From: Bacillota bacterium
GTDB lineage: Bacteria; Bacillota; Sulfobacillia; JACIYH01
Length of the DNA stretch: 37,858 bases
Direction of reading: 5' to 3'
NCBI GenBank assembly: GCA_030019365.1
Contig: JASEFA010000002.1
Coordinates: 83,461-121,318, forward strand
The position numbers and the translations under genes are program-made. The notes beneath the pieces were generated by a model. That model made no database searches and had not been told where the DNA came from. It was given only the letters and a program-made list of their open reading frames with translations. Of this stretch, positions 16,549 to 37,858 are shown piece after piece. Within the stretch, counting starts at the first letter, position 1, and the number at the start of each line of letters is the position of its first letter.

Positions 16549-17448
16549 CTAATCCCGTACGCAGGAGCCCGTCCGGCCCCGCAGGTGGGCGATCTGGCCC
16601 CGGAGCAAAGAGAGCACCTTGCGGTCGATCTCGGGTCCGGGGCGGTGCCTCTCCTCCAGGTTCTCCACGCCTTCATAAGTGGACAGTGCCGCTTCCAGTT
16701 CCGGCGACCAGCGGCCGTCCGTCGCACCCGCCCAGTAGCCGAGTCCCCTCAGTCCCTCCTGGATCTCCTTGATCAGGGCCTCGTCCAGCGGCAGGATGTC
16801 CTCGGGGGCCGGTGGCAGGAAGTAGAGATCGTGCAAATCGATGAGGCGGCCCAGCTCCACCACCGGGTCGGGGTGGTCGTCCACGCGCAGGTCCATGTAG
16901 CGGTCGCTGAGGCCGCCGTATCCCCCTCCCGCGCGCACCACCAGGATGCCCGCCGACTGCCTGCCCCGCCGGTCCCCTCCCGCCCGGTCGCCCGCCAGGA
17001 GGGCCGCGTGCAGGCGCCGGGCCAGGGAGCCACGGGTGGCGAGGAAGGTATCCGCCATGCCCCGCACTACCTGCTCGCCGGCCAGGATGTTGCCCTGGCA
17101 GGTGAAACCTTCCCCTGCGATGCCCCCCGCCCAGGACAGGCAGCCCTCCCCGGTGAAGGTGGCGCTGCGGCCGGCGGCGTCAACCAGCCCCACCTGGCGC
17201 AGGTGACGCTCCTCGTCCGCCGCGGTGAGTTGCCGCACCGCGTCCGGGGCGGGGATGCCCGCCGCCATCAACTCCAGGCCCCGGGGACCGTAACTGACGT
17301 TGGCGTGCGCCTGGGTGGCCACCGCCCCCACCCCGGCGCGGGCGTGCATCACCACGGCCCCCGCGGCCAGGAACTTGGAGGCCACCGCCACCCCCCATTC
17401 CTGCCTGTCAGGGTCATACGCCACTATGGAAAACGTACTCGGCCTCAT
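16549..17448 (-). CDS. DUF1028 protein with peptidoglycan-binding-like C-terminus
   Basis: A 299-residue protein. Residues 1-210 are DUF1028, an Ntn-hydrolase-like family: STFSIVAYDPDRQEWGVAVAS, GAVATQAHANVSYGP, TGEGCLSWAGG, CQGNILAG and SAGILVVRAGGGYGG, DLRVDDHPDPV. The last 80 residues (LDEALIKEIQEGLRGLGYW...WSPELEAALSTYEGVENLEER) look like a peptidoglycan-binding-type helical domain, a known partner of this family. The biochemical role is unknown. The ATG at 17448 follows AAAGGGGGG. No signal peptide is seen, so the protein is probably cytoplasmic despite the wall-type domain. Confidence 0.85.
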   Translation of the reverse strand: MRPSTFSIVAYDPDRQEWGVAVASKFLAAGAVVMHARAGVGAVATQAHANVSYGPRGLELMAAGIPAPDAVRQLTAADEERHLRQVGLVDAAGRSATFTGEGCLSWAGGIAGEGFTCQGNILAGEQVVRGMADTFLATRGSLARRLHAALLAGDRAGGDRRGRQSAGILVVRAGGGYGGLSDRYMDLRVDDHPDPVVELGRLIDLHDLYFLPPAPEDILPLDEALIKEIQEGLRGLGYWAGATDGRWSPELEAALSTYEGVENLEERHRPGPEIDRKVLSLLRGQIAHLRGRTGSCVRD

Positions 17449-17718
17449 GCGCCGCGCCCCCCTTTGTTCGGTCTCCCCCGCAGCTCCCTACCCGGGCTCC
17501 CGCTGCCTGAGTCCGACCCGGGCCCCGGCATCCGGTTTCTCTGGCGCACACCCGCTTTCCTTCGAGCCGCTCCCTGGGGGGTGACGAGCCAGCCGCCTGA
17601 CGCGCTGCCACCCGGCTGTCAGCAGCCAGCCAATTCGCACGCCGTCGATCTGAGAACGAGACGGCCGCCGCGTGGTAGAATAGGCGCGCAGGCCGGCACC
17701 GGGGGCGGGGGATCAGCG

Positions 17719-18294
17719 GTGGCGAAAACCGTTGCGAACACGTACGAGGGCAGGAACATCCTGCGGGGGTATCCGCTGATCGTCACGGCGGGCGTCATCC
17801 GCAAAGATGACGCCGTCCTCATCGCTCGCCGGGAATCGGGACCGCTGGCAGGCCAGTGGGAGTTCCCCGGAGGCAAGCTCGAACCCGGGGAAAGCCCCGA
17901 GGCATGCCTGGCCAGGGAACTCCGGGAGGAGCTAGGCCTGGAGGTAGAGGTCGGGGACATCTTCGCGGTGGTCTACCACGAGTACCCCAGCGGGCCGGTC
18001 CTGCTCCTCGGGTACACCTGCCTCCTCCCCGAAGGCCACGCCTGCCCGCCCGAAGACTGCGCCTCTCACCTGCCCGAAGACTGCGGGCACAATCAGACGA
18101 GGTCCCGCCCGGGACGGGTACCGTCCCGGTGGGTGAAGATCCCCGACCTGCACCGCTATGGCTTCGCTCCCGCGGACCTCCCCATCGTTGAGAAGCTGCA
18201 GCGCACCGGCGCGGCTCCCGCTTGCGGGGAGCAACGGCGCCGCAGCGGCATCCGCGAAGAACAGGCATCGCCCCGTGCCATGCTTAGGGCTTGA
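17719..18294 (+). CDS. Nudix hydrolase, MutT-like
   Basis: A 191-residue protein with a complete Nudix box, GGKLEPGESPEACLAREL then REELGL, which binds Mg2+ and cleaves nucleoside diphosphate derivatives. The N-terminal VTAGVIRKDDAVLIARR and the late RWVKIPDLHRYGFAPADLPIVEKL fit 8-oxo-dGTPase or CTP-pyrophosphohydrolase members. A loop insert (residues about 104-133) holds PEDCASHLPEDCGH, a tandem PEDC duplication. The last 25 residues are probably a non-family tail. The GTG at 17719 follows GGGGGATCAGCG; TAGAAT at 17676-17681 may be the -10. The divergent gap 17449-17718 has no gene. Confidence 0.85.
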   Translation: MAKTVANTYEGRNILRGYPLIVTAGVIRKDDAVLIARRESGPLAGQWEFPGGKLEPGESPEACLARELREELGLEVEVGDIFAVVYHEYPSGPVLLLGYTCLLPEGHACPPEDCASHLPEDCGHNQTRSRPGRVPSRWVKIPDLHRYGFAPADLPIVEKLQRTGAAPACGEQRRRSGIREEQASPRAMLRA

Positions 18295-21160: not shown

Positions 21161-24100
21161 ATGGGGGGCAGGGGCGGGCGGGGCCGCACCGGGGAGGACC
21201 GCTCGGCTGCTGGCACCAGCGCGGGCGGGACCATCACAGTGGTGACCAGGGACATCACCACGGGCGCACTCATACCCGAGTTCAAGTTCATCGTCAGCGA
21301 GAACAACGTGGGTGATCCCCAGGCCGACCTGCCCGAGGAGCAGCGGGACCCCGCCCGCTTCCCGTCGCTGAAGCCGGCTGCCAGCCACAGCCCCGTGGTG
21401 GCCGCGGGGGAAGCCTCCCCCGGCTCTCCCGGCGCGGTCACCGTCCCCGACGGCAGCTACCTCGTCTCTGTGCTCGCCCCGGGGTACAAGATGGGGGGAG
21501 CCTGGGTCACCGTGGCCGGCTCCCCGGTCACGGCCGAAGCCTGGCTCCACCCCCACCCGCTCCCCCTCTCGAAGATCAGGGTGCGGGTGTTCCACGACAA
21601 CAGCCCCGTGAACGGCGAGGACGACACCCCGCTGGAGACGGGACTGGAAGGCTTTCGTATCGTTATCGAAGACGCCGGCGGCGAAGTCACCGTGGACTAC
21701 TTCGGCAACCCCCTGGGGACGCGGTACGAGGTTGACGCCGAGGGCAATATCCTGTTCGACGAACTGGGAAGCCCCGTCCGCATCCCGGGCACCGGTGGCA
21801 GGATACTCACCGACGCCAACGGCGAAGCCGTGATAGAAAACCTCCCCCCTGGTAAGTACGGGGTGCAGGCCATCCCTCCTGACGGGACCGACTGGATTCA
21901 GACCAGCACCATCGAGGGGACCCACGTCATCGACGTCTGGATCGAGGAGGGAAACGACGGCTACAGCCCCCGCGAGGGGTTCAGGGCCCCCCTGGTGTGG
22001 ATAGGTTTCGTGCGACCCATGGAGTTCCCCCCGCCCGTGGCGTGGACGACGGGAGAAATCAGGGGCAGGGTGCGGACCATCATCGAGTTCGTCCCTCCCG
22101 TGCGGCCCCTCGTCCTGGGGGACGCGGTGGACCGTCCCTGGATCGCCCTCACCGACATCGGGCGCACCGACCGCCAGGTGTACACCGGCCGCGGGGACGC
22201 CGACGGCACCTTCACCATCAGGAACGTCCCGCCCGGCGTGTACCAGATGGCCATCTGGGACGAACCCCTCGACCACATCATCTCCTTCCGCACCGTGCAG
22301 GTGGAGGCCGGCCAGACGGTGGACATGGGCGACATCGGCATCCCGCGGTGGTTCGGCTACCTGAGGGGCAGCGTCTTCCACGACCCCGACGCCGACGCGG
22401 CTCGCCAGCCGGGTGAGGGCGGCATCCCCAACGTGGAGGCGGGGACGCGCTTCAAGGACGGGAGCGTCCAGTACCGCACCGTCAGCGACATGCGCGGCAA
22501 CTACGCCCTCGACGAAGTGTTCGAGCTAGAGAGGTTCGCTGTGGCGGAGGTGGGCTTCACCCGCCTGGCCGCCACGGGCGCCACCGCCACCCCGGACTCC
22601 GGCATACCGGTACCGGTACCCACCGGCTGCACGGATCCCCAAGGGCGATACGTCCGCTGCCCGGAAACGCATCCCGGGGCACTCACCCTGGCCGAGCTGA
22701 CCTGGGCCGCCAAGACCAACCGCATCGACTGGGGCAAGAAGCCGTACGGCCGGGGAGAAAACGGCGGCATCAGCGGGATGGTTTACTACGCCACCATGCG
22801 CAACGAGATCGACCCCAGGTACGCGGTGGCTGAAGACTACGAGCCGGGCGTGCCCGGGGTGCGGGTCAACCTCTACGACGCCACCGTCGACCACATGACG
22901 GGAGCCGTCACCCCGGGCCGGCTCCGCGCCTCCGTGACCACCGATGCCTGGGAGCACCCCACCGGCTGCCGCGACCCCGAGGGCAACCCCGTGCCCTGCA
23001 TAGAGGTGCCCGGCATCTCCAACCAGGTGAGGCCGGGGGTGTTCGACGGGGCATACGCCTTCGCCCCCCTCCCCCCGGGGACCTACGTGGTCGAGGTGGT
23101 GCCTCCTCCCGGATACCGCGTCCTGGACGAGAACGCGGTGAACACCGGCGAGGGAGACGTGTTTGCCCCTGCAGGTACCGCTCTCGCCGTGCGGGCGCGA
23201 CCCCGGCTGCGCATGGCCCCCGCTCCCTACCTTCCCCTCCCCCACCCGCCCTACTACGACCCCGCCCGGAAGGTGGTCACCGTCCGAGACGACCTGAACG
23301 CCACCGCCGACTTCTTCATCTACACGGACGTCCCCGTGCCGGGCAGGATCGTGGGGTTCCTGCTCGACGACGTGAACATCGAGACCGACCCCAACCGCAT
23401 CTATTACGGCGAGAAGAGGGGCATCCCCGACACCCCCGTCGGCATCCGGGACTTCCGGGGGAGGCTCATCACCACCGTCCACTCGGACATCAACGGCATC
23501 TTCGAGGTGCTGCTCCCCTCCACCCACACCAGGAACGTCCCCACCCCCTCGGGGGTGGCGCCCGGTATGTACCAGATCGTCGGCAACGACCCCGGAGACC
23601 CGGACCGGCCCAACGCCAGGTACAACCCCAACTACCAGACCCTCAAGATGGTCTTCGACGTGTGGCCGGGCAAGACCACGTACGCCGACGTGGCCCTCTT
23701 CCCCATCACGGCCTTTGTGGCCAGGCCGGCGGTCCAGTTCGCGCAGCCGCCGCGGTGTGACGTGCCCCCGGGAAGGCCGGAACTCTTCCGCGTGGACAGG
23801 GTGCACGTGGAGCCGGGCGGGCCCAGGCAGATCACCGTCACCGGACGGGGCTTCGGGGCGACTCCCGGGGTGGTGACGCTGGACGGCCTGGCCATGCCCG
23901 TCACCACCTGGGCGGACACCTCCGTCACCTTCGAGGTGCCCGCCATCCCCGGAGGGCCGAAGCAGCTCCTGATCACGAACGCGGCCGGGCAGACCTGCGC
24001 CAACGGGATCACCGTGCACGTGCTGGACGCCGGTTACCATCCCCCCATCATCACCGTCCCCGACGCAGCCCTTCCCACCGTCCAGTCCGCCATCGACGCC

Positions 24101-25657
24101 GCCGCCGACTGCACCCTGATCATCGTGGCGCCCGGCACCTACCACGAGAGCCCTATCATCTGCAAGAACGTCAAGCTACAGGGGATGGGGGCCGGCGATA
24201 CGGTCATCGACGGGCGCTTCTTCCTTTCCTACCTGGACGACTGGCTCGCCAAACTCCAATCCATCGAGTTCGACGGTCCCGAGCTCGTTCCACCCGATCA
24301 GGTCAAGGAGATCAGCCGGGGCCAGGTCATCACCGTGGTGGCTAAGGCCGGGTCGTTCAGTTCTTCCTTCCCGCCCCAGGTGGACGGCTTCACCATTACG
24401 GGCGCGCGCGGTGAAGAAGGGGGCGGGATCTACGTGAACGCCCACTGCCAGCACCTCATCATCAGCAACAACGTCATCCGCAGCAACGGGGGCGGGTTCG
24501 GAGGCGGCATCACCATAGGGAAGGCGTACGCTGGCGACAACCACAACGGCCACATCCGCATCCACCACAACCGCGTGGTCAACAACGGCGGCATCAGCCT
24601 GGCCGGCGGCATCGGCATCTTCAACGGGGCGGAGTACTACGAGGTCGACCACAACGAGATCTGCGGGAACTACTCGGCCGAGTACGGGGGCGGCATCTCC
24701 CACTTCGGCCTTAGCGACGGCGGCAGCATCCACCACAACTGCATCCTATTCAACGCTTCTTTCGACGAAGGGGCGGGCGTGTTCGTGGGCGGGGAGCAGC
24801 CGCTACCTCCCGAGGTGCTCAGCGCGGGTTCGGGCCGGGTGGACATCTACAACAACCTCATCGCGGGCAACGTGGCCAACGACGACGGAGGGGGCATCCG
24901 CCTCTTGCAGCCAAGAGACTACCGCATCAACATCTACAACAACTTCATCGTCAACAACGTCTCCACCGACCTGGGCGGGGGCATCGCCCTGGACGATGCG
25001 TCTATGGTGGTGATCTGCAACAACACCATCGCCAAGAACATCACCACCGCCACGGCGGAGGACAGTGATGGCCGGCCCCACGCGGCGGGGCTGGTGAGCG
25101 AAACCCACAGCGACGCTTTCCGGGCCACCCTGCCCCCGGACGATCCCGGATTCAGCAACCCGGTCCTCTTCAACAACATCTTCTGGGACAACCGGGCGGG
25201 CGTGTTCGACCAGACGCTCGAGGCGGGCCGGGGCGGCATCGCCGGAATCGGTGCCCCCGGGGACCCACGGCCGGTGAACGTCATTGACCTGGAGGTCTTC
25301 GGCGCGCCCGCGTTCCTGGAACCCCAGTACTGCACCCTTTCCCGGCCCTATCCGGGAGGGAGCAACAACCGGGTCGGCAACCCCATGTTCGTGCGCGAGT
25401 ACGACACCCGGCTCACGGCGGTGGCATTCAACATGGAGGCCGACTTCAAGACCGTGAGGATAGTGACGGCCATCCCCGAGGCGGAGGGGGATTACCACCT
25501 GACGGCAGCCTCCACCATCGCCATAGACAGAGGGACTCCGCGCGTCACCCGGGTGGTGGCCGGGCAGCTCGAGCTCTTCCAGGCTCCGGCCCGCGATTTC
25601 GACGGTGACTTGCGGCCCCGGCGGGCCGGGTACGACATCGGTGCCGACGAGCTCTGA
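21161..25657 (+). CDS. Giant SdrD-B-like/IPT/beta-helix protein, first gene of the cupredoxin cassette
   Basis: A 1498-residue protein. Four SdrD-B/carboxypeptidase-regulatory-like segments start near residues 138, 399, 536 and 726, each with a beta-strand opening (VRVFHD, GSVFHD, GMVYYA, GFLLDD) and a later GxYxLxx or PPGxYxV hairpin such as LPPGKYGVQAI and LPPGTYVVEVV. Residues about 876-960 form an IPT/TIG fold (ITVTGRGFGATPGVVTLDG). Residues about 966-1370 form a right-handed parallel beta-helix with repeated NNxIxxNxxxxGGGI turns, and the tail RDFDGDLRPRRAGYDIGADEL matches the choice-of-anchor-Q ending. The protein looks made for surface or matrix assembly, yet no signal peptide follows the ATG at 21161 (ribosome site GGGGAGG) and no anchor is seen. 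Three cupredoxin genes follow at 45, 42 and 20 bp; a shared operon is inferred. CGTACTAT near 21104 may be a sporulation-type -10, weakly. Confidence 0.85.
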   Translation: MGGRGGRGRTGEDRSAAGTSAGGTITVVTRDITTGALIPEFKFIVSENNVGDPQADLPEEQRDPARFPSLKPAASHSPVVAAGEASPGSPGAVTVPDGSYLVSVLAPGYKMGGAWVTVAGSPVTAEAWLHPHPLPLSKIRVRVFHDNSPVNGEDDTPLETGLEGFRIVIEDAGGEVTVDYFGNPLGTRYEVDAEGNILFDELGSPVRIPGTGGRILTDANGEAVIENLPPGKYGVQAIPPDGTDWIQTSTIEGTHVIDVWIEEGNDGYSPREGFRAPLVWIGFVRPMEFPPPVAWTTGEIRGRVRTIIEFVPPVRPLVLGDAVDRPWIALTDIGRTDRQVYTGRGDADGTFTIRNVPPGVYQMAIWDEPLDHIISFRTVQVEAGQTVDMGDIGIPRWFGYLRGSVFHDPDADAARQPGEGGIPNVEAGTRFKDGSVQYRTVSDMRGNYALDEVFELERFAVAEVGFTRLAATGATATPDSGIPVPVPTGCTDPQGRYVRCPETHPGALTLAELTWAAKTNRIDWGKKPYGRGENGGISGMVYYATMRNEIDPRYAVAEDYEPGVPGVRVNLYDATVDHMTGAVTPGRLRASVTTDAWEHPTGCRDPEGNPVPCIEVPGISNQVRPGVFDGAYAFAPLPPGTYVVEVVPPPGYRVLDENAVNTGEGDVFAPAGTALAVRARPRLRMAPAPYLPLPHPPYYDPARKVVTVRDDLNATADFFIYTDVPVPGRIVGFLLDDVNIETDPNRIYYGEKRGIPDTPVGIRDFRGRLITTVHSDINGIFEVLLPSTHTRNVPTPSGVAPGMYQIVGNDPGDPDRPNARYNPNYQTLKMVFDVWPGKTTYADVALFPITAFVARPAVQFAQPPRCDVPPGRPELFRVDRVHVEPGGPRQITVTGRGFGATPGVVTLDGLAMPVTTWADTSVTFEVPAIPGGPKQLLITNAAGQTCANGITVHVLDAGYHPPIITVPDAALPTVQSAIDAAADCTLIIVAPGTYHESPIICKNVKLQGMGAGDTVIDGRFFLSYLDDWLAKLQSIEFDGPELVPPDQVKEISRGQVITVVAKAGSFSSSFPPQVDGFTITGARGEEGGGIYVNAHCQHLIISNNVIRSNGGGFGGGITIGKAYAGDNHNGHIRIHHNRVVNNGGISLAGGIGIFNGAEYYEVDHNEICGNYSAEYGGGISHFGLSDGGSIHHNCILFNASFDEGAGVFVGGEQPLPPEVLSAGSGRVDIYNNLIAGNVANDDGGGIRLLQPRDYRINIYNNFIVNNVSTDLGGGIALDDASMVVICNNTIAKNITTATAEDSDGRPHAAGLVSETHSDAFRATLPPDDPGFSNPVLFNNIFWDNRAGVFDQTLEAGRGGIAGIGAPGDPRPVNVIDLEVFGAPAFLEPQYCTLSRPYPGGSNNRVGNPMFVREYDTRLTAVAFNMEADFKTVRIVTAIPEAEGDYHLTAASTIAIDRGTPRVTRVVAGQLELFQAPARDFDGDLRPRRAGYDIGADEL

Positions 25658-25702: not shown

Positions 25703-26720
25703 GTGGCCACAGTGAGCAAGCGGTACGGGGCGACCGACGGGTCCATCAGCATGCCCGACGGCACCACCCACTACATCTTCGGCTTCGTCGACATCACCGG
25801 CGTGCCGGAGAACATGATATTCGAGTTCAGGGGCCGGGCCCAGCTCCTGGCTCCTCTGCTCGAGGTGCACGAGGGAGACGAGGTCTACCTCACTCTGACC
25901 AACCTGGGCATGCCCGGGAGGCCCGACCTGGACGACGCCCACACCATCCACTGGCACGGCTTCCCCAACCAGATCCCCCTGTGGGACGGCGTCCCCGAGG
26001 CGTCCGTCTCGGTGCCGGTGGGAAGGGATTTCGTCCACTATTACCGCCCCCGGGATCCGGGGACCTACATGTACCACTGCCACTTCGAACCGGTGGAACA
26101 CATCCAGATGGGCATGGTGGGCCCGCTGGTGGTGCGGCCCCTCATCGAGAAGAGACCCGGGTACGCGGGCAGGAAGTTCGCCTACAACGATCCCGCCACG
26201 GAGTTCGATCGGGAGTACCTCGTCTTCCTGACCGAGATGGACAGCCGTCCCCACCACCTGGTGGCAAACGCGCAGCAGTTCGACTGGACCGAGTACCGCC
26301 CCCAACTACTGGCTGCTGAACGGGAGGGCCTACCCGGACACGGTGAAACCCGCGGGAACGGCCGAGCTGCCCGAGCAGCCATACTCCGCCCTCATCTCCG
26401 CCCAAACGGGGGAGCGGGTCCTGCTGCGCTTCGTGAATCTGGGGTACCAGCAGCATGCCGTGCAGATACTGGGCATCCCCCTCAAGGTGGTGGGCGAGGA
26501 CGCGCAACAGCTGCTGGGAGTGCACGGGGAAGATCTGTCCCGCCGGAGGAACACCCTGTACCTCGCTCCCGGCCAGACCGCAGACGCCATCATCACGGCA
26601 CCCGAACCCGGCGTCTATCCGCTCTACAGCACCAACTTCCACAGGAACACCAACGCCGGGTCGTCTTTCGGCGGGATGATCACCGAAGTGAGGATCTCAC
26701 CCCGGCGAGCCCGCCCCTGA
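25703..26720 (+). CDS. Cupredoxin protein A: type 1 copper site plus half of a trinuclear site; frameshifted
   Basis: Two cupredoxin domains. In domain 1, H80-x2-H83-W-H85-G and YHCH (H125, C126, H127) with H133 and M138 give a whole type 1 copper site (H80, C126, H133, M138) and two of the four HxH pairs of a trinuclear centre. The HCHFEPVEHIQMGM block resembles MofA/OmpB-type oxidases. Domain 2 (about 200 on) keeps only one histidine, in NLGYQQHAVQI. The reading frame breaks at five Cs (26299-26303): 25703-26302 reads in one frame, 26304-26720 in another, and removing one C gives the expected YRPNYWLLNGRAYPDT. This could be true decay, a sequencing error or programmed slippage. The GTG at 25703 follows GGGGAG; no signal peptide. 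Confidence 0.8.
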
Positions 26721-26762
26721 GCGCAGCCGGGCCCGGACCGGCCGGAAGAAGAAGGTGGTCCC

Positions 26763-27926
26763 ATGGCGACGATCGACCTGTGGGTGAAAGACGGGTACCT
26801 CAGCACCCCCGACGGCAACAGCATATACTTCTGGGGCTTCTCGGCCAGCCCCGACGGCCCCGCCCAGGTCCCCGGGCCCCACATGGTGGTGCAGCAGGGC
26901 GAGCAGGTAACCGTCAATCTCATGAACACCCTGCCCCTCGAACCCGTATCGATCGTGTTCCCCGGGCAGTGGCCGGTCTGGGTGGGCGGCAGGCTGGCCC
27001 GGCCCCAGTACGATCCGGCGGGAAACCTGGTCTCCTTCGCCGATCACGCCCCGCCGGACCGCGGGGTGATCTCCTACACCTTCACGCCCGAGCGCCCGGG
27101 GACGTTCCTCTACGAGAGCGGGACCCACCCGCACAAGCAGGTACCCATGGGGCTCTACGGGGCGCTGGTCGTCCGGCCCGCGGACTACGACCCGGCCGAC
27201 CCCGCGCGTAAGACCGCCTATGGCTTCGGCACCGACACCGAGTTCGACCGGGAGTATCTCCTCATCACCGGTGAGATTGATCCCGAACTGAACAACGCCG
27301 TGGGGGAGGGCAGGCCGTACCTGGTGCCGAGGTTCCGGCCCCGCTACTGGACCCTGAACGGGCGCTGTGCCCCCGACACCATCCTGCCCGACCGGGTACC
27401 CCACCTTCCCCACCAGCCGTACGGGTCCATGGTCATGGGGCTACCCGGGGAAAAGATCCTCATCCGCCTTGCCGGGGCGGGCGTCGACAACCACCCCGTG
27501 CACCCCCACGGCAACCACGTCCGGGTGGTGGGCACCGACGGCAGGTTGCTCAGGAACGACGGCACCGACCTCTCCGGCAGGAGGTTCACGGTGCTGGTGG
27601 GGGCCGGGCAAACCTGGGACCTGGTTTTCTCGTGGACCGGCCTGGGATTCACACCCGAGAACCCCATCCCCACCGTCCTGCCCAACAGGAGGAACCTCGG
27701 GGTCGGGGATGCCGGCTGGACCCTGTGGAGCGGCAGCCCTTACCTGGGGCAAAAGGGCGACATCCCCGTGGCGGTCGTCTCCTTCAACGAGTTCGGGGAG
27801 TACTACTTCATGCTGCACGCCCACGAGGAACACAAGATAACCAACTGGGGCGAGTTCCCCGGGGGCATGATGAGCATGATCGCCATCTACCCCTCCCTGA
27901 GCCCCGCCGTGGGAACGCTGCCTTAG
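26763..27926 (+). CDS. Cupredoxin protein B: second half of the trinuclear copper site
   Basis: A 387-residue, two-domain protein, paralogous to A and C. Domain 1 aligns with A domain 1, but the ligands are lost: HTIHWHG becomes VSIVFPG, and YHCHFEPVEHIQMGM becomes YESGTHPHKQVPMGL. Domain 2 has what A lacks: NHPVHPHGNH (H244, H247, H249, H252) and LHAHEEH (H352, H354, H357) before EFPGGMM. Thus B gives two HxH pairs but no type 1 cysteine. With A it completes the eight histidines expected of a trinuclear cluster. The inference is a heteromeric multicopper oxidase with the site at an A1-B2 interface. The ATG at 26763 follows AAGAAGGTGG; no signal peptide. The shared FDREYL segment after domain 1 further ties it to A. 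Confidence 0.85.
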   Translation: MATIDLWVKDGYLSTPDGNSIYFWGFSASPDGPAQVPGPHMVVQQGEQVTVNLMNTLPLEPVSIVFPGQWPVWVGGRLARPQYDPAGNLVSFADHAPPDRGVISYTFTPERPGTFLYESGTHPHKQVPMGLYGALVVRPADYDPADPARKTAYGFGTDTEFDREYLLITGEIDPELNNAVGEGRPYLVPRFRPRYWTLNGRCAPDTILPDRVPHLPHQPYGSMVMGLPGEKILIRLAGAGVDNHPVHPHGNHVRVVGTDGRLLRNDGTDLSGRRFTVLVGAGQTWDLVFSWTGLGFTPENPIPTVLPNRRNLGVGDAGWTLWSGSPYLGQKGDIPVAVVSFNEFGEYYFMLHAHEEHKITNWGEFPGGMMSMIAIYPSLSPAVGTLP

Positions 27927-27946
27927 CGCCGGAAAGGAGAGCCACC

Positions 27947-28948
27947 ATGCCGGCCCTGGTCAGGAAGGATCTGTGGGTGAGAAGAGGTCTCCTGAAGCTG
28001 CCGGGGGCGCACGTGCCGTTCTGGGGGTTTGCCGCCTCTCCCTCGGCCCGGCCGGTGTTGCCCGGGCCCGTGATCACGGCCACCGTGGGCGACGTCATCC
28101 TGGTAACCCTGCGCAACACGGAGCTGCCCGTGCCGGTCTCCCTGATGTTCCCCGGGCAGACGCAGGTCCTCACCAGACGGCCGGCCACCCGCTGGAAACC
28201 GGTCAGCCCCCGCTACCAGGCGGGCAGGATGGTCTCCCTTACCGACACCCTGGACCCCGGACCTGATGGCTGGATCAGGTACCGGTTCCGGGCCAGCAAG
28301 CCCGGGGTGTACCTGTACCAGTCGGGCACCAACCCCGGAGTCCAGGTGCAGATGGGTCTCTACGGGCTGATCGTGGTAAGGCCGGTGGGGTTCGCGAGGC
28401 CGTCCGGCCCCAACTACAGGACGGCCTACGGCGCCCAAACGAGAACGGGCTTCGACATCGAGAAGCTGCTCGTCCTGGGAGAGGTGGATACCGCCATGCA
28501 CGCCAGGGTGGCTGCGGGGGCGGAATTCAACATCCTCAACTTCGCACCCGACTACTGGGTGATCAACGGGCGTTCCTACCCGGACACCGACCGCCCGGAC
28601 TACGATCCCGCCCTGCCCCACCAGCCTCTGGGGTCGGCGGTGGCGGCCAGGACGCGCGGGCGCATACTTCTCCGGCTGATCAACGCGGGCTTCCTCAACC
28701 ACACCATTACCTTGGGAGGTCTGCCGGGACGCGTCGTCGGCGAGGACGGATTCCCCCTCGCCTCCCCCGCGCTTGACGCCACCTACGAGAAGACCGCCGT
28801 GACGCTGGGCGCGGGCCAGAGCCTCGATGTCATCGTCAGACCAGGGCACCCGGGGGAGCACTACCTGCGCGCCCGCGACTACCGCCGCATCGTCAGCGTG
28901 AGCAGCTTCCCGGTCGGGATGATGACCCGCCTAGCGGTCACCGCCTAG
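27947..28948 (+). CDS. Cupredoxin protein C: copper-free paralogue
   Basis: A 333-residue, two-domain paralogue of A and B. Domain 1 aligns with VSLMFPG in place of HTIHWHG and YQSGTNPGVQVQMGL in place of the HCH block. Domain 2 has NHTITLGGLPGRVVGEDG, keeping one histidine, and RARDYRRIV in place of B's LHAHEEH. So no copper site is expected; it should be structural, as the blue-copper-free domains of ceruloplasmin-like six-domain oxidases are. The ATG at 27947 follows AAGGAGAG, 20 bp after the stop of B. No signal peptide. It is the last gene of the cassette; no clear terminator follows within 80 bp. Confidence 0.85.
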   Translation: MPALVRKDLWVRRGLLKLPGAHVPFWGFAASPSARPVLPGPVITATVGDVILVTLRNTELPVPVSLMFPGQTQVLTRRPATRWKPVSPRYQAGRMVSLTDTLDPGPDGWIRYRFRASKPGVYLYQSGTNPGVQVQMGLYGLIVVRPVGFARPSGPNYRTAYGAQTRTGFDIEKLLVLGEVDTAMHARVAAGAEFNILNFAPDYWVINGRSYPDTDRPDYDPALPHQPLGSAVAARTRGRILLRLINAGFLNHTITLGGLPGRVVGEDGFPLASPALDATYEKTAVTLGAGQSLDVIVRPGHPGEHYLRARDYRRIVSVSSFPVGMMTRLAVTA

Positions 28949-30484: not shown

Positions 30485-31696
30485 ATGGGGCGCCACGTGG
30501 AGGTCTGCGTGAGGCCGCTCCGGCGCGAGGATCTCGCCGGCATACACGGCATCCTGCGGCAGCCGGAGGTGGTGAGGCAAACCCTGCAGCTGCCGTCGCT
30601 GCAGGTGGGCTGGATGAGCGGGTGGCTGGCCGATCCCCAGAGCAGGATTAGCCTGGTGGCCGAACTGGTCCACCTCAGCGGACGTCCGGGACAGGAGACG
30701 CGGCAGGCCGTCGTGGGGATGATCTCCCTGCAGCGGTTTACGGGGCGCCAGGAGCATGTGGCCGGCCTGGGGATGTTCGTAGACCCCGCCTTCCACGGGC
30801 GGGGCATCGGGACCCGGCTCGTGGAGGCTGCCCTGGAGGCGGCCGACCGGGAGTGGCAGGTCGTGCGCACCCAACTCGCGGTTTACCCCGACAACGAACC
30901 AGCCCTGCGCCTGTACCGGCGCTTCGGGTTCCGGGAGGAGGGCCGCCTCGCCCGCATGGCCATCCGGGACGGAACCTACGTGGACGCCATGGTCATGGCC
31001 CGAATCCGTCCCGATCTTGCCACCGCCGGTGATGCCCGCGAGGAAGAGACCGCCGACCAGGTGCCCGCTACCCACGGGCGGGGCGCCGGCGCTGCCCCGG
31101 AGAGGCGCGGTCCCGCTCTCGGGGGAGCAGCACGGGATGCCACCGCCAGCGACGCGGATGCGATCGAGGTGAGACCGCCGGACCCCGCCGACGCCGCCGG
31201 CCTGGTGCGCCTGTACCGCGATCCCGGCCTCATCCGCAACAGCCTGCTCGTCCCGGACCCGCCCCCCGACGAGAAGGACGTCGCAGAGAAACTGGGGACC
31301 CCACCCGGGGTACCTGTGCACGTGTTCGTCGCCGTCTTGCGCGGGGAGCTTTGCGGGGAGGTCCGGCTGGCACCCCAGCGCTCGCCACGGATGGCCCACA
31401 GCGCCCAGGTCACCCTGCTGGTACCACCGCCCGGCAGCTCTCTGGCCGAGGGCCTGGGCTTTCCCGCCCGCCCGGTCGCCCGGGCCCTGCTCGAGGCAGC
31501 ACTGGACCTGGCGGATCGCTGGCTTCTGCTTTACCGGCTGCGCCTGGACACGTACCCGGACGAAGAGTGGCTGTTCCCCGTGCTCCAGGGGCTCGGCTTC
31601 GTCGTCGAGGCCAGAGACCGCATGGCCGCCGCCCGCGACGGGCGCTACGACGACCGCCTGGTTTGGGGCCGGCTCAGGCCCGGCAGCCCCATGTAA
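30485..31696 (+). CDS. Tandem GNAT acetyltransferase
   Basis: A 403-residue protein with two GNAT-like halves. The first (1-178) is complete: VRPLRREDLAGIHGIL, the acetyl-CoA loop FHGRGIGTRLVEAAL, and YPDNEPALRLYRRFGFREEGRL, as in YhhY/RimI-like N-acetyltransferases. The second (about 226-403: VRPPDPADAAGLVRLYRDPGLI ... ARALLEAALDLADRW ... FPVLQGLGFVVEARDR) keeps the outline but lacks the Q/RxxGxG loop, so it is probably a regulatory or structural half. They are joined by about 45 residues of Ala/Gly/Asp/Arg-rich linker. The ATG at 30485 follows GCGAGGGGGC. The substrate is unknown. Confidence 0.82.
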   Translation: MGRHVEVCVRPLRREDLAGIHGILRQPEVVRQTLQLPSLQVGWMSGWLADPQSRISLVAELVHLSGRPGQETRQAVVGMISLQRFTGRQEHVAGLGMFVDPAFHGRGIGTRLVEAALEAADREWQVVRTQLAVYPDNEPALRLYRRFGFREEGRLARMAIRDGTYVDAMVMARIRPDLATAGDAREEETADQVPATHGRGAGAAPERRGPALGGAARDATASDADAIEVRPPDPADAAGLVRLYRDPGLIRNSLLVPDPPPDEKDVAEKLGTPPGVPVHVFVAVLRGELCGEVRLAPQRSPRMAHSAQVTLLVPPPGSSLAEGLGFPARPVARALLEAALDLADRWLLLYRLRLDTYPDEEWLFPVLQGLGFVVEARDRMAAARDGRYDDRLVWGRLRPGSPM

Positions 31697-31728
31697 GAAT
31701 CCACCGGACTGCGCATGAGGTGGGAGGA

Positions 31729-32469
31729 ATGGACACCCAGACCCTCCTGGTCTACGAATCTCGTGCACCCGAGTTCTGCGCACGCTACCGCGCCATCGAA
31801 CCGCGGGAACTGTACGGGCTGATGGAGGGTTTCTTCCGCCGGGGTGAACCGACCGCGGACATCGGTTGCGGGAGCGGGCGGGACGTCGCCTGGCTCGGGC
31901 GGCACGGTTTCCCCGGCACCGGTTACGACGCCTCCCCCGCGATGATTGCCGAGGCCCGCAAAGGCTACCCCGGGATCGACGCGCACCAGGCCAGCTGGCC
32001 GGGCCTCTCGCGGCCCAGCCAGGCGAAGAGCCCGGATACGGCACCCGAAGCCCCCGAGGTGATGCACAGCCTCTCTCTACAGGTGAATGAGTTCATCCAG
32101 CCACGCCGGTCCGGTGCCCTGGAGGCGCTGCCAGAACAGGTCCTCGAACAGATAGTGGACGGCCAGCATTCGCCAGCCGGCCCAGCGCTGGGTGACGAAC
32201 TCCACTATCCTGTCAACAGGTACGAGCTCCTCGCCGAACAGGAGGCGGGAGAAAATCTTCTGCTCCCAGGGCGAGATATGCTGAAAGACGTCGTAGCGGC
32301 GGAAGACCTCGAACAGGAGATACCACACAGAGGCCGGGCCAACACCATGGAGCGACAAGAGCCGTTTGCGGAGAGCGTCCGTGTCCAGGCTGCGGAGCTC
32401 TATCTCGTCTATTCCTCCGCGGACGAAGGTATCCGTCAGTCTTCTGATGGTCCGAGCCCGGTAGCCTAG
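31729..32469 (+). pseudogene. Truncated SAM methyltransferase running antisense into the glycosylase gene
   Basis: The first ~90 residues are a class-I methyltransferase: TADIGCGSGRDVAWLGRHG (motif I) and FPGTGYDASPAMIAEARKGYP. Motifs IV and later are missing. From about 32010 the residues lose family likeness, and from 32077 to the stop at 32469 the frame is simply the complement of the DNA glycosylase gene. The ribosome site GAGGTGGGAGGA before ATG 31729 is intact, so a 247-residue hybrid could still be made, but it lacks half the methyltransferase fold. It is probably a deletion product. Confidence 0.65.
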
Positions 32470-33135
32470 CTTCAGGCGGCGGAGGTCGTCCTCGGTGGCA
32501 TGGTCGAGAAGCTCGGGACCGCCCAGGGCTCCCATCTCCTTTCCGGCGAAGACGACCGGGTAACCGTAATGGGTGATAAGGTTGTCCATCATCTGCGCCG
32601 TCCGCCGGACAGTGGCGTTCTGTAGGACCACCGTGATGACCAGGAACTCGAACAGCGAGCCGCTCGCAGAGACCTGCATCCCGCGCCAGCGCCTGATGAC
32701 TGGTCCGAGGAGATCGTCTCCGGCGAACCGCTCGTAGAACGGCGCGAGGTCGGCAGTCATTCCGTAGCGGTAGGCCAGCTCTTTGAGGAGCCTTGAGACG
32801 AGGTCGGGGCCTGGGTCGCGCTCCGCATGGACGGTGACCTTCACCAACGGGTCGTCGACAGGGCCTTCTGCCCGCATGGTCACACCCAAGGGCGTCCTCT
32901 CGTAGACGAGAGCCTGGTACCAGACGTGGTCCTCGAGGAGAACGTTGCGGGAGGGGAAGTGGGACGGCTTGTAGGCCGTGGCCACGAGATTGTAAGGCGG
33001 GATGGGGCGGATCTCGCCCTCCCGGATCGGGCGCAGCTCGAGAACCCGGCCGCCGCGGTCCGGGTCGCCACCGCCACGGGCTGTGCCACCGGCGCTACGG
33101 GTTCGGCCGCCCTTCCGCTCCACCCTATCCGGCAT
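32077..33135 (-). CDS. HhH-GPD DNA glycosylase-like protein
   Basis: A 352-residue protein of the AlkA/OGG1-like superfamily. Residues 30-140 form an N-terminal domain; LFEFLVITVVLQNATVRRTAQMM is the usual entry helix of the HhH-GPD fold (compare LxxxILxQQ); LRKRLLSLHGVGPASVWYLLFEV is the helix-hairpin-helix with GVG. After it family members have D-x-F-P-x2-D with a catalytic aspartate; here the order is YDVFQHISPWEQKIF, and a Ser/Pro/Trp run replaces the aspartate, so the mechanism may differ. It would find damaged bases in DNA. The ATG at 33135 follows GGGGAGGTCCTTCG and overlaps the upstream chimeric gene by 11 bp. The first 30 residues are low-complexity. Confidence 0.78.
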   Translation of the reverse strand: MPDRVERKGGRTRSAGGTARGGGDPDRGGRVLELRPIREGEIRPIPPYNLVATAYKPSHFPSRNVLLEDHVWYQALVYERTPLGVTMRAEGPVDDPLVKVTVHAERDPGPDLVSRLLKELAYRYGMTADLAPFYERFAGDDLLGPVIRRWRGMQVSASGSLFEFLVITVVLQNATVRRTAQMMDNLITHYGYPVVFAGKEMGALGGPELLDHATEDDLRRLKLGYRARTIRRLTDTFVRGGIDEIELRSLDTDALRKRLLSLHGVGPASVWYLLFEVFRRYDVFQHISPWEQKIFSRLLFGEELVPVDRIVEFVTQRWAGWRMLAVHYLFEDLFWQRLQGTGPAWLDELIHL

Positions 33136-33733
33136 CGAAGGACCTCCCCGCCCTCGGATTTCCCGCCTTCTGGCTTTCCTCGGTCGTCTCGTACATCTCC
33201 CGGATGATGCTCTCGATGGACTCGTGCTCTGCCTTGACGTTCACGATGTGGTGAGTGCTGGCCACCTCGGCCACCACCTGGCTGAGGTCGTGACGTCTCG
33301 GGTCGTACATGACCGTGATCCAGGCCCCTTCCCGGCGGACGACCGTTCCGGTCGAGATAGCCAGGGGGCGATCGAAGTCGGAGAGTTCGAAGACCAGGAT
33401 GTTCTCCTGGGACAGGCCCCGGAGGTGATCGATGCTGCCGTCGAAGAGGATGCGCCCGTGGTTTATCAGGATCAGGCGGTCGCAGAGCCGCTCGATGTCT
33501 GCGATGTCGTGGGTGGTGAGCAGGATGGTCACCTTCCGCTCCCGATTCAGGCGGGTCAGAAAGCGCCGGATGCGCTCCTTGGCCACGAGGTCAAGACCTA
33601 TCGTCGGTTCATAGGGGACGCCGAACCCGCCCCCGAAGTCCAGCACCTCTAGGGGGAGGCTGTGTTCAGTCGATAGGCGGACGGCCAGGCCCAGCATGTG
33701 CTCAACTGTTAGCGATGCTCCCAGACCGGCCAC
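33125..33733 (-). pseudogene. Chimera: PLP decarboxylase fragment joined to ABC ATPase C-terminal half
   Basis: A 202-residue frame made of two unrelated pieces. Residues 2-41 (GLGASLTVEHMLGLAVRL, then LPLEVLDFGGGFGVPY) are the middle of a fold-type-III PLP decarboxylase such as LysA. Then EPTIGLDLVAKERIRRFL and VTILLTTHDIADIERLCDRLILINHGRIL are an ABC ATPase from just after the Walker B site, with its C-terminal accessory part. Walker A and the signature motif are missing, so no ATPase is possible. The join lies at about 33610. A GTG at 33733 follows the SCIFF stop by 8 bases. It looks like a large deletion scar fused in frame; the glycosylase downstream was probably once in an operon with the transporter. 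Confidence 0.75.
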
Positions 33734-33741
33734 CTCGCCGG

Positions 33742-33957
33742 CTAACGGGCATCATCCAGAGGGCAGGGCTGGTTGCTCACCGTGCAGGAAGTCTTGCACG
33801 CCGATTGGCACGAGGTCTGGCACTCCTGGCACTCGCGCGACAGGTCGGTGCGCCGCGCCTCGCGGTGCCAGCCCGCGGAGAACACCACCTCGAAGTGCGA
33901 CGTCCTGACCTCCGCACCATTCGCCACGTCAGCCGGTTCCACCGTACGCATCCTCAA
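33742..33957 (-). CDS. SCIFF (six-cysteine) ranthipeptide precursor
   Basis: The C-terminal core reads CQECQTSCQSACKTSC followed by TVSNQPC: six cysteines in the near-invariant pattern of SCIFF peptides of Clostridia (the CteA type), which a radical SAM/SPASM maturase converts to thioether-bridged ranthipeptides. Most SCIFF precursors are about 45 residues; this one is about 71, with a longer leader (RTVEPADVANGAEVRTSHFEV...). The TTG at 33957 lies 4 bases after GGGAGGTG and is preferred; an ATG at 33951 is possible. A promoter-like extended -10 is 39 bp upstream. The maturase that normally follows is not here: the PLP decarboxylase/ABC chimera starts 8 bases after the stop. Confidence 0.85.
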   Translation of the reverse strand: MRMRTVEPADVANGAEVRTSHFEVVFSAGWHREARRTDLSRECQECQTSCQSACKTSCTVSNQPCPLDDAR

Positions 33958-33995
33958 CGGACACCTCCCGTCTGGCCGCCAACGGCGCCTGCACC

Positions 33996-34004
33996 ATATT
34001 ATCA
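33996..34004 (-). promoter_or_regulatory. Extended -10 (TGATAATAT) before the SCIFF gene
   Basis: On the minus strand TG-A-TAATAT is a full extended -10 in a very GC-rich setting, 39 bp upstream of the TTG start. TTGACT lies 22 bp further up, too far for a standard -35, so the TG extension would carry recognition. Confidence 0.5.
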
Positions 34005-34135
34005 CAGCACCGCCCGGCGGGCGAGTCAAGGGCCCGGCCCCGGGCGGCTGGGGCCGCCAGCCCCGCGCCCCTCGCCGCGCCAGCCTGGCGGCACACGCAG
34101 GAGTCCGACGGGACGCCCGCGCCCGGTCGGAGGCT

Positions 34136-35041: not shown

Positions 35042-35917
35042 GTGCAACCCGTAACCTGCAAGACCGCCTTAAGCCGGACGGGCATTCCGGGGCATAAGTA
35101 TTGCCTCAACCCGTACACCGGGTGCCGGCACGGCTGCCTTTACTGCTACGCCCCTGTAGTCCTGCGTTTCTCACCCGTCTCGGACGCCTGGGGAACGAAG
35201 GTCCAGGCCAAGATGAATATCCCCGACGCACTCTCCAAGGAGGTTTTACGCAAACGTACTCCCGTGGGAAACGTGATGCTCGGCAGCGTGACTGATCCCT
35301 ACCAGCCCTGCGAGCAGGAACTGGGTCTGACCAGGCGGTGTCTCCAGATCCTGGGCGAACTGCCGGGGGCCGGAGTCTCAATTCTTACCAAGTCGGCCCT
35401 TGTGACAAGGGATGTGGACCTTTTCAGAACATGGATCTCAGGAAACGATGAGCCTTCCCGGGGCCGAGGGAGTGACGACGGCCCTGGCGCCCCCCCGGGC
35501 ACTCGACTTTCAGTCGGCTTCATCATAACCGTTCTTGACGACGATATCGCCAAAGCCTTCGAACCGGGCGCTTCTCTGCCTTCGGAAAGGCTGAAGGCCG
35601 CAAAAGATCTCGTTCAAGAGGGTATCCCGGTGTGGGTGTTTGTGGCGCCGGTCCTTCCGGGAGTCGGAGACAGCCGAGAATCCTTGCAAAGCCTCCTGTC
35701 AGCCATCCGCGATGCCGGGATCTCCACGGTCAGCTTCGACCGCCTGAACCCCTATCCGAGAAGCGTGGCGCTCCTTCAAGCCACGTACAGGCACCGGTTC
35801 CCCGGTGCCCTCCCCTATCTCGAGGAATACCTCCGACACCCCATTGCCTACTGGGCGGACTTTGAGATGCTGGCCAGGTCCTTAGCTGAAGAGATAGGCC
35901 TCGAAACCAACGTATGA
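35042..35917 (+). CDS. Radical SAM protein of the spore-photolyase-like (SplB/Rv2578c) family
   Basis: A 291-residue radical SAM protein. NPYTGCRHGCLYCYAP carries the C-x3-C-x2-C cluster motif near residues 28-35; then come VMLGSVTDPYQPCEQELGLTRRCLQIL, VSILTKSALVTRDVDLF and VWVFVAPVLPGVGDS, as in SplB-like 'DNA repair photolyase' proteins. True spore photolyase repairs thymine dimers with 5'-deoxyadenosyl radical; this shorter relative's substrate is unknown. A linker, about 130-150, holds SRGRGSDDGPGAPPG. It has no SPASM domain, so it is not a SCIFF maturase. The GTG at 35042 has a poor ribosome site (CCGGGA). Confidence 0.85.
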   Translation: MQPVTCKTALSRTGIPGHKYCLNPYTGCRHGCLYCYAPVVLRFSPVSDAWGTKVQAKMNIPDALSKEVLRKRTPVGNVMLGSVTDPYQPCEQELGLTRRCLQILGELPGAGVSILTKSALVTRDVDLFRTWISGNDEPSRGRGSDDGPGAPPGTRLSVGFIITVLDDDIAKAFEPGASLPSERLKAAKDLVQEGIPVWVFVAPVLPGVGDSRESLQSLLSAIRDAGISTVSFDRLNPYPRSVALLQATYRHRFPGALPYLEEYLRHPIAYWADFEMLARSLAEEIGLETNV

Positions 35918-36065
35918 GCCGGGAGAAAGTCTCTCGGGGCCCCGTACTGCCACGACCACGGCGGCGCAGAGTGCTCCACAACAGCGCGTAGTCTTTCGCG
36001 ATCAATCGGGTGCATGAAGAACTCCCCGGTGAAGTTCATCATGAAGTGGAACAGCACCGGCGGAA
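35848..36065 (-). pseudogene. C-terminal scrap of a second CPBP membrane protease
   Basis: On the minus strand, PVLFHFMMNFTGEFF carries the H-x3-N motif of CPBP (CAAX) proteases, followed by HPIDRERLRAVVE and a decayed tail, YGAPRDF, where active relatives have a hydrophobic helix ending YGPR. The frame runs on antisense to the radical SAM gene. Only the last motif is left. The GNAT gene's last codons (36039-36060) are the same DNA in another frame, so a deletion probably joined the two. Confidence 0.55.
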
Positions 36066-36569
36066 TTCGTCGGCCAGGACGGCCATGAGGTGCTGGTCGC
36101 GCCAGCCCCCATCCGCGAACACGGCCTGCCGCAAGGTGCCCTCCCGCACGAAGCCGCACTTCTCGTAGCAGCGCTGGGCCCTCACGTTGTCCGCGTTCAC
36201 CCGCAGGTAGATGCGGTGGAAGTTCATCTCGTCGAAGGCGAAACGCAGCAGGGTACGGATGGCGTCGCTGCCATATCCTCGCCCCCAGCATTCCTTCTCG
36301 CCGATGAAGATCCCCAGTTCGGCCTGCCGGTGAACCTGGTCAATGCGGTGCAGACCCATGACGCCGATGGGCCTGCCGTCGCGCGTCTGGATGAGGAGCA
36401 CGCGGTCGCTCTCGCTGCGGGAAACCCGCTCGAGCCAGTCCCGCTCCTGGGAACGCGAATAGGGGAAGTGGGGCATCAGGTACCGGCCGAACTCGCGGTC
36501 GTTGATCCAGCGCAGTAGCGTGTCCACATCCTCCATTTCGGGAGGCCTGAGCACCACCTTCTCTCCCAT
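36039..36569 (-). CDS. GNAT acetyltransferase, RimJ/RimL-like
   Basis: A 176-residue N-acetyltransferase: VVLRPPEMEDVDTLLRWIND, PIGVMGLHRIDQVHRQAELGIFIGE, the acetyl-CoA loop CWGRGYGSDAIRTLLRFAF and LRVNADNVRAQRCYEKCGFVREG are all as in RimJ/RimL-type enzymes that acetylate protein N-termini, amino acids or antibiotics. The fold is complete; the last 8 residues (RRCCSTS end) are encoded in the join with the CPBP scrap. The ATG at 36569 follows AAGGCG; a GTG at 36593 is less likely. Confidence 0.85.
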   Translation of the reverse strand: MGEKVVLRPPEMEDVDTLLRWINDREFGRYLMPHFPYSRSQERDWLERVSRSESDRVLLIQTRDGRPIGVMGLHRIDQVHRQAELGIFIGEKECWGRGYGSDAIRTLLRFAFDEMNFHRIYLRVNADNVRAQRCYEKCGFVREGTLRQAVFADGGWRDQHLMAVLADEFRRCCSTS

Positions 36570-36593
36570 CAGCAACGCCTTACACCCCCACAC

Positions 36594-36900
36594 GATGTCC
36601 CCGTGTAGCCGCCTCCCCGACCAGGAGGCGCCGACCCCCCTGTCGGAGGTATGTCATCTCCTGTTCTCCGTCGCCCTGCCCCATCCCTTCACGGCACTTC
36701 CCTCACCCGACGTCCTCTCACCCCGCTTAACCGCGCGCTGGAAGGACGGGACCGGCCTCCGCCGAATGAATCGCGGTGAGGGAGTCCTCGTACCGCCCAG
36801 CAGGGGCTGGCGTCCCTTCCGTCGGCCGCGTCGGTTGCCACACGGTTCCCGCGTCGGTTTCCAGGGGTTCCCGGTACCTCACGCAAGGAGGGAGCGCATC
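36594..36900. other. Intergenic stretch without a recognised gene
   Basis: It separates two divergent genes. It contains short hairpins (CCGAC...GTCGG near 36629-36644; CCAGC...GCTGG near 36809-36824), perhaps leader structure for the metallo-beta-lactamase-fold gene. No riboswitch or T-box consensus was seen. Confidence 0.4.
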
Positions 36901-37722
36901 ATGATAACCACCAGCCAGTTCGGGCCGGTGACCCAGTTTACTATGGGCCGCCTGTTCGGAGGGAAGCCGGTCTATACCATGGCCTGTTACCATGTCGACG
37001 GGCTCTTGATCGATACCGGCCCGGCTCACGTGGCAGAAGAGATACCGGCCGCCCTCGCCCCCTGCCCCGTCCGGACCGTCGTCAATACCCACCACCACGA
37101 GGACCACATCGGCAACAACGCCATCCTGCAGCAGCAGTTCGGCACCGGTCCCGCCCTCGCCCACCCCCTGGCGGTGCCGCGCATCAGCGATCCGACGTCA
37201 TGGATCGCACGCCTGCTTCCCTACCAGCACTTCGCCTGGGGTTCGCCTCCGGCCTCCGCCGCCGCGGCCATCCCCGACCACCTGACCGTCGGGCGCCACC
37301 GGTACGCGGTCATCCACACACCCGGCCACAGCGACGACCACATCTGCCTGCTGGAACCGGACGAGGGGTGGCTGTTCAGCGGCGACCTGTTCCTGTCCGA
37401 ACGGGCCGAGATCATGCGCAGCGACGAGGACGCCGGCCAGATCCTGGCCTCCCTGCGCCGGCTGCTGGACTACGAGTTCAAGACCATCTTCTGCGGGTCC
37501 GGCCGCGTGGTGGAAGACGGCAGGCGCGCACTGGCGGCCAAGGTCGAGTTTTGGGAGCACCTGGCCACCGAGGCCTGCCGCCTGAGGGCACAGGGCAGGG
37601 AGCCGGAGGAGATAAGGCAGGCGCTGCTCGGCGAGGAGAGCACCCTGTACTCCCTCACCGGGGGCGACTTCGGCAAGATCCACCTCATCAACTCTCTACT
37701 GAGGTGCTTCTACCGTTCCTGA
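36901..37722 (+). CDS. Metallo-beta-lactamase-fold hydrolase
   Basis: A 273-residue protein. NTHHHEDHIG (H64, H66, D68, H69) is the H-x-H-x-D-H metal motif; HTPGHSDDHI gives the third-site histidine and FSGDLFLSERAEIM the bridging aspartate. The C-terminal helices (residues about 200-273) resemble the tail of glyoxalase-II-like/RNase-Z-unrelated hydrolases. It probably opens a thioester or lactone; the substrate is unknown. The ATG at 36901 has an excellent ribosome site, AAGGAGG, 8 bases upstream. Confidence 0.87.
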   Translation: MITTSQFGPVTQFTMGRLFGGKPVYTMACYHVDGLLIDTGPAHVAEEIPAALAPCPVRTVVNTHHHEDHIGNNAILQQQFGTGPALAHPLAVPRISDPTSWIARLLPYQHFAWGSPPASAAAAIPDHLTVGRHRYAVIHTPGHSDDHICLLEPDEGWLFSGDLFLSERAEIMRSDEDAGQILASLRRLLDYEFKTIFCGSGRVVEDGRRALAAKVEFWEHLATEACRLRAQGREPEEIRQALLGEESTLYSLTGGDFGKIHLINSLLRCFYRS

Positions 37723-37750
37723 AAACTCAATGACACCCCCGCCGGACTGC

Positions 37751-37858
37751 GATCGGGCGTAGGGTCCGCGGTGGGCCCGCGATCGCGGCGTATAGTCCAC
37801 CGTCGGGCGCGGATCGCGGCGTATAGTCCACGGTCCACCCCGACATCGTGGCGTATAG
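37751..37858 (+). repeat. Degenerate ~31-bp tandem repeat reaching the window edge
   Basis: Units begin at 37751, 37781, 37812 and 37844 (spacing 30, 31, 32). The shared core is GATCGCGGCGTATAGTCCAC (exact in units 2 and 3; unit 1 diverged; unit 4 cut by the edge), followed by about 11 variable bases. It starts 28 bp after the stop of the preceding gene. Confidence 0.7.

Follow-up and report, generated by a model that had tools for sequence, protein, structure and literature searches.

A six-cysteine precursor beside a composite reading frame

The DNA analyzed here, hereafter the window, is a stretch of 37,858 nucleotides in mid-contig (C2, 578 kb) of a draft Bacillota genome of 27 contigs (G000). 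Toward one end it encodes a six-cysteine ranthipeptide (SCIFF) precursor, which is followed on the same strand by a reading frame made of pieces of other genes. The features around the precursor are listed below.

33998..34029, minus strand: putative promoter TTGACT-N17-TGTGATAAT (extended -10), kept in G002
33962..33969, minus strand: Shine-Dalgarno-like GGGAGGTG, read from the sequence and kept in G002 with a spacer indel
33742..33951, minus strand: SCIFF precursor, type A (69 aa, ATG start; TIGR03973 and PF13165)
33763..33831, minus strand: six-cysteine core CQECQTSCQSACKTSCTVSNQPC, from the translation
33125..33733, minus strand: composite open reading frame (ORF) of a spacer remnant, a decarboxylase-like scrap and a C-terminal ABC ATPase piece (profile matches and comparison with G002)
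32077..33135, minus strand: HhH-GPD/Ogg-like DNA glycosylase gene (TIGR00588, E 5e-12; PF00730, E 0.0018)
35042..35917, plus strand: PA0069-like radical SAM gene (NF033668, 151 bits, far below its cut-off)

Both curated models recognized the precursor above their cut-offs (TIGR03973, 54.6 bits against 50, E 7.2e-15; PF13165, 54.4 bits against 27, E 1.1e-14), and the family spacing C-x2-C-x3-C-x3-C-x3-C-x6-C had a single match in a six-frame translation of the window, which is the core of this peptide. An earlier sequence-only reading had described such a core behind a leader longer than usual, and both descriptions agree with the model matches: the TIGR03973 alignment begins only at model position 17, and the leader is unusual as well as long. 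The same reading called the ribosome site and the extended -10 intact. This stands insofar as both are conserved in the congener G002; a strict consensus scan upstream of the precursor found no promoter, with TTGACT and GATAAT 20 bp apart, and the case for an intact -10 therefore rests on conservation rather than on the scan.

The neighboring gene had been described as a fusion of broken pieces beginning 8 bases on, and this is what was found. The composite ORF starts at GTG 33733, 8 bases past the SCIFF stop; its N-terminal ~10 residues derive from a former SCIFF-maturase spacer, 37 residues weakly resemble a PLP-dependent decarboxylase (PF02784, 18.0 bits, below the cut-off of 23.4), and its 3' part matches an ABC ATPase toward the C-terminus (positions 150-260 of the 302 in the drrA model) and lacks Walker A. 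It is probably no working gene. Its DNA had no close counterpart elsewhere in G000 or in the congeners G001 and G002, and the source of the decarboxylase/ABC scrap was not found there. The idea that the ORF retains the first residues of a maturase (MAGLGAS versus MSDLGAS) was dropped, since the DNA alignment sets the G002 maturase start codon at ~33705 and not at GTG 33733.

The SCIFF had also been read as lacking its maturase, and neither a maturase nor a remnant of one was detected in the window, so that the adjacent enzyme of the SCIFF two-gene system (ScfA plus ScfB) is missing here. The remnant search returned one significant match only, to a frame that overlaps the SCIFF region preceding a maturase on contig C3, not to the enzyme itself. 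The radical SAM gene at 35042..35917 is PA0069-like and no SCIFF maturase.

Comparison of the locus with two congeners

Two congeners, G001 and G002, were compared at this locus. The additional features used in the comparison are the following.

36039..36593, minus strand: GNAT acetyltransferase, conserved upstream neighbor of the SCIFF in G002 (PF13302, E 6.2e-33)
36901..37722, plus strand: MBL-fold hydrolase, conserved neighbor in G002 (PF00753, E 5.2e-22)
33705..33711, no strand: breakpoint, where homology with the G002 SCIFF-maturase locus ends (blastn ends)
16613..18042, minus strand: NUDIX plus DUF1028 block (blastn to G002 locus L024, 7370-8926; PF00293, PF06267)

In G002 (C76:13482-15272), an ortholog of the window SCIFF with 90% amino acid identity is followed after ~33 bases by a radical SAM/SPASM maturase of 515 aa, and the acetyltransferase and MBL hydrolase genes of the window recur upstream of it; window positions 35898-37858 are 93% identical to the G002 locus. 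The two loci thus share the orthologous precursor, its upstream neighbors, the promoter and the ribosome site, whereas G002 keeps its maturase in place and has no second pair. Homology between them stops within a few bases of the G002 maturase start codon. The NUDIX and DUF1028 genes, which come directly after the maturase in G002, lie 15.7 kb away in the window with order and orientation unchanged, so that ~15.7 kb of DNA now stands where the maturase was. The HhH-GPD/Ogg-like gene is part of this DNA and is absent from G001 and G002 at the DNA level. On this comparison, the type-A maturase of the window was removed by a rearrangement.

The arrangement in G001 is different again. There, the PA0069-like radical SAM gene, which occupies the same place as in the window and is missing in G002, is followed after 12 bases by the sequence that follows the maturase in G002, and no type-A pair is present. 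Blocks of the interposed DNA (window 18.3-19.5, 20.1-21.1 and 30.5-31.7 kb) also occur at this locus in G001, in another order. Taken together, the three arrangements indicate a locus prone to rearrangement in this genus. Short direct repeats (GCGTATAGTCCAC...) at window 37734-37858 recur, in multiple copies, at the corresponding position in both congeners and may mark a rearrangement site.

Several other observations were made in the interposed DNA. A methyltransferase ORF at 31351-32469 breaks off at ~32030 and continues into unrelated sequence; this break and the one at 33705 bracket a 1.7-kb island, with the HhH-GPD gene and the ABC and decarboxylase scraps, that is found in neither congener at the DNA level. 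Farther on, an ORF of 1498 aa with SdrD_B-like and carboxypeptidase-regulatory-like domains (21161-25657) is followed by three overlapping multicopper oxidase-domain ORFs (25703-28948).

The G002 locus bears out the suggestion that the precursor has lost its partner, as a maturase fills the corresponding gap. The sequence-only reading had named such a maturase in relatives, lost from the window through misassembly, as the finding that would overturn it; the first part was found in G002, and the second is unlikely. A break exactly at the maturase start, a patchwork ORF after it and a draft of 27 contigs are all what would be seen if the real chromosome carried a maturase next to the SCIFF. However, the type-A maturase is nowhere in the assembly, the blocks flanking it on either side keep their collinearity with G002, blocks of the interposed DNA occur independently at the same locus in G001, and the window lies well inside its contig, which together make an assembly error very improbable.

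A second pair and the linkage of SCIFF genes in other genomes

The absence of a maturase holds for the locus and not for the genome. A profile search of G000 for a TIGR03974-like enzyme, which the sequence-only reading had proposed, gave one strong match, at C3:10999-12399 (363 bits); TIGR03974 is by far its best NCBIfam family, although the score is below the cut-off of 425. The nearest solved structure is CteB (PDB 5WGG, E 1.2e-88), which aligns from query residue 81 on, including the CxxxCxxC and SPASM cluster cysteines. Directly upstream of this intact enzyme, at C3:10700-10837, lies a second SCIFF, which shares 83% identity with that of the window over 51 residues. We refer to this pair as type B. 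The maturases of the genus (L025 2982-4559, on C3 of G000; L023 6532-7947, in G001; L024 5725-7272, in G002) score 363-376 bits against TIGR03974, so annotation by its cut-off misses them and standard annotation would leave them unnamed.

The type-B pair occupies the same site in G000 and G001 and is the sole SCIFF pair of G001. In G002, this site is empty (C69:14820-14955), with the two flanks 135 bases apart and nothing of the pair between them. Each of the three genomes therefore has one complete pair, and only that of the window has an extra precursor. In the maturase tree, the type-A and type-B enzymes of the genus form one clade (100/100) apart from all others sampled, with the type-B enzymes of G000 and G001 together. 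Such a clade would be expected of a duplication within the lineage, and transfer from an unsampled relative would also be compatible with it. Type-A and type-B maturases share 59% identity. The cores of the peptides are the same in both G000 copies, G001 and G002, and the recognition stretches are similar (HFEVVFSAGW...DLSRE in type A and HVRVVFSAGW...DLPRE in type B); the type-A leader has five extra residues. A stretch of 91 bp at 94.5% identity suggested gene conversion between the two copies; the idea was dropped, since G001 has the shared codons too, and they are probably ancestral.

A study that collected the enzymes by adjacency described SCIFF as a system pure to the point that a maturase should accompany each precursor (PMC5300114). 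In our survey of 61 genomes of the class, 27 of 30 SCIFFs had an adjacent maturase, and the window copy was alone in having none in reach; G000 was also the only genome with two SCIFFs. In the remaining cases, the pair was either split by contig ends (G039) or 2.4 kb apart, with an IS607-type resolvase and TnpB between (G019). The insertion in G019 (L154, C91:46800-51600), with a resolvase-like ORF of ~200 aa and a TnpB-like ORF of ~530 aa named from their sequence only, represents another way of parting the pair. Among further loci from public genomes, the maturase was adjacent in 76 of 80, a count that takes in two loci (L047 and L117) assigned by table reading after the scripted rule missed both. 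The other four comprised one locus at a contig end, one whose assembly gave no match at all and two from Pelotomaculum. Among open-license articles, no paper on unlinked SCIFF precursors was found.

The Pelotomaculum genomes offer an independent parallel and a precedent for an unlinked pair. In P. terephthalicicum (G061, locus L054) and Pelotomaculum sp. PtaU1.Bin035 (G062, locus L104), there is a single SCIFF and a single full-length SCIFF maturase (617-618 bits, above the cut-off), each on a different contig, and no SCIFF-like core was found beside the unlinked enzyme in either genome. In the latter, a 42-aa C-terminal maturase stub lies just downstream of the SCIFF (L104 6199-6324). A congener of the former (G066) has both a linked and a solo maturase. 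The unlinked enzymes are 81-88% identical to its solo enzyme and 46% identical to its linked one, while the stub shares 71% identity with the linked enzyme, against 35-38%. These identities indicate that Pelotomaculum, like the window genome, lost a linked enzyme in the presence of a second one. In Pelotomaculum, no enzyme other than the distant one is a candidate for acting on the SCIFF. The two cases share a precursor apart from a full-length maturase, with the linked enzyme lost or reduced to a stub and a paralog elsewhere; they differ in that the distant maturase lacks a SCIFF of its own in Pelotomaculum, whereas that on C3 has one.

Fate of the orphaned precursor

Compared with G002, the core of the window SCIFF has 0 non-synonymous and 6 synonymous differences, and the whole gene has a dN/dS of 0.12, a divergence that may mostly be older than the loss of the maturase. 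Counts on individual branches, from 41 alignable codons with the B copies as outgroup, gave 2 non-synonymous to 2 synonymous changes for the window and 0 to 5 for G002 (Fisher p 0.17, calculated by hand on these few changes). Two changes at conserved sites occur in the orphan alone, a leader V replaced by F and a P replaced by S immediately ahead of the core, and these changes outside the core would fit relaxed constraint. The intact core is thus no proof of the continuing selection that had been proposed, given a core divergence that may mostly predate the loss and two conserved residues changed in this copy alone.

The reading that we favour, at slightly better than even confidence, is that a deletion orphaned the precursor and that the C3 maturase probably still processes it in trans. 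The type-A locus was once a normal pair, in the order MBL hydrolase, acetyltransferase, SCIFF, maturase, NUDIX and DUF1028. As the comparison with G002 shows, a rearrangement cut it at the maturase start codon, removed the enzyme and put ~15.7 kb of different DNA in its place, among it the scrap in the composite ORF; this loss would have been tolerated because the enzyme had become redundant. The orphan SCIFF would still be transcribed from its own conserved promoter, its leader would be recognized by the C3 maturase, and its core would receive the same cysteine thioether cross-link or cross-links as in CteA, where the thioether joins Cys to Thr (review PMC8326336). The orphan may thus serve as a second gene for a peptide nearly identical to the product of copy B. 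The suggestion of maturation by a distant enzyme consequently has a concrete candidate, albeit one with its own SCIFF substrate. Acceptance of the type-A leader by the type-B enzyme is not assured, given the 59% identity of the maturases and the five extra leader residues.

Nearly as likely is a recent relic, that is, an orphan redundant with the C3 copy and drifting, with too little time elapsed since the maturase was lost. The complete second pair makes the orphan redundant, G001 has no type A at all, two positions that are otherwise conserved outside the core have changed in this copy only, and scrap DNA adjoins it. Against drift, the orphan has no frameshift, stop or lost cysteine, it retains its promoter and ribosome site, and its core differences are synonymous only.

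That the six-cysteine peptide works unmodified had also been suggested, and it might then bind metal or form disulfides; only the absence of a linked maturase speaks for this. The genome does encode a maturase, and all SCIFF peptides so far described serve as substrates of one (PMC8326336, PMC5300114), and we regard an unmodified function as the least credible explanation.

Returning to the favoured reading of processing in trans, the window genome resembles the known SCIFF systems (ScfA plus ScfB; CteA/CteB, Tte1186a; ranthipeptides) in its six-cysteine core and CteB-like maturase, and differs in the maturase not being beside the precursor, in the long leader and in the second SCIFF. Part of the literature cited in PMC8326336 reports a role of SCIFFs in quorum sensing in solventogenic clostridia. 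The window holds a natural case of a precursor that a deletion left without its enzyme, in a genome that has a duplicate of the system, and maturation of this precursor in trans is favoured but unproven. With close to an even chance, SCIFF maturation can more generally move to a distant maturase: at least two lineages would have lost the linked enzyme after a second existed, with one enzyme serving a precursor in trans (here, two precursors with different leaders).

The window and Pelotomaculum genomes are natural cases of broken adjacency in which a maturase survives elsewhere, and such unlinked pairs make the trans-recognition of SCIFF leaders directly testable. If true, trans-maturation would run against the view of SCIFF as a strictly paired two-gene system.
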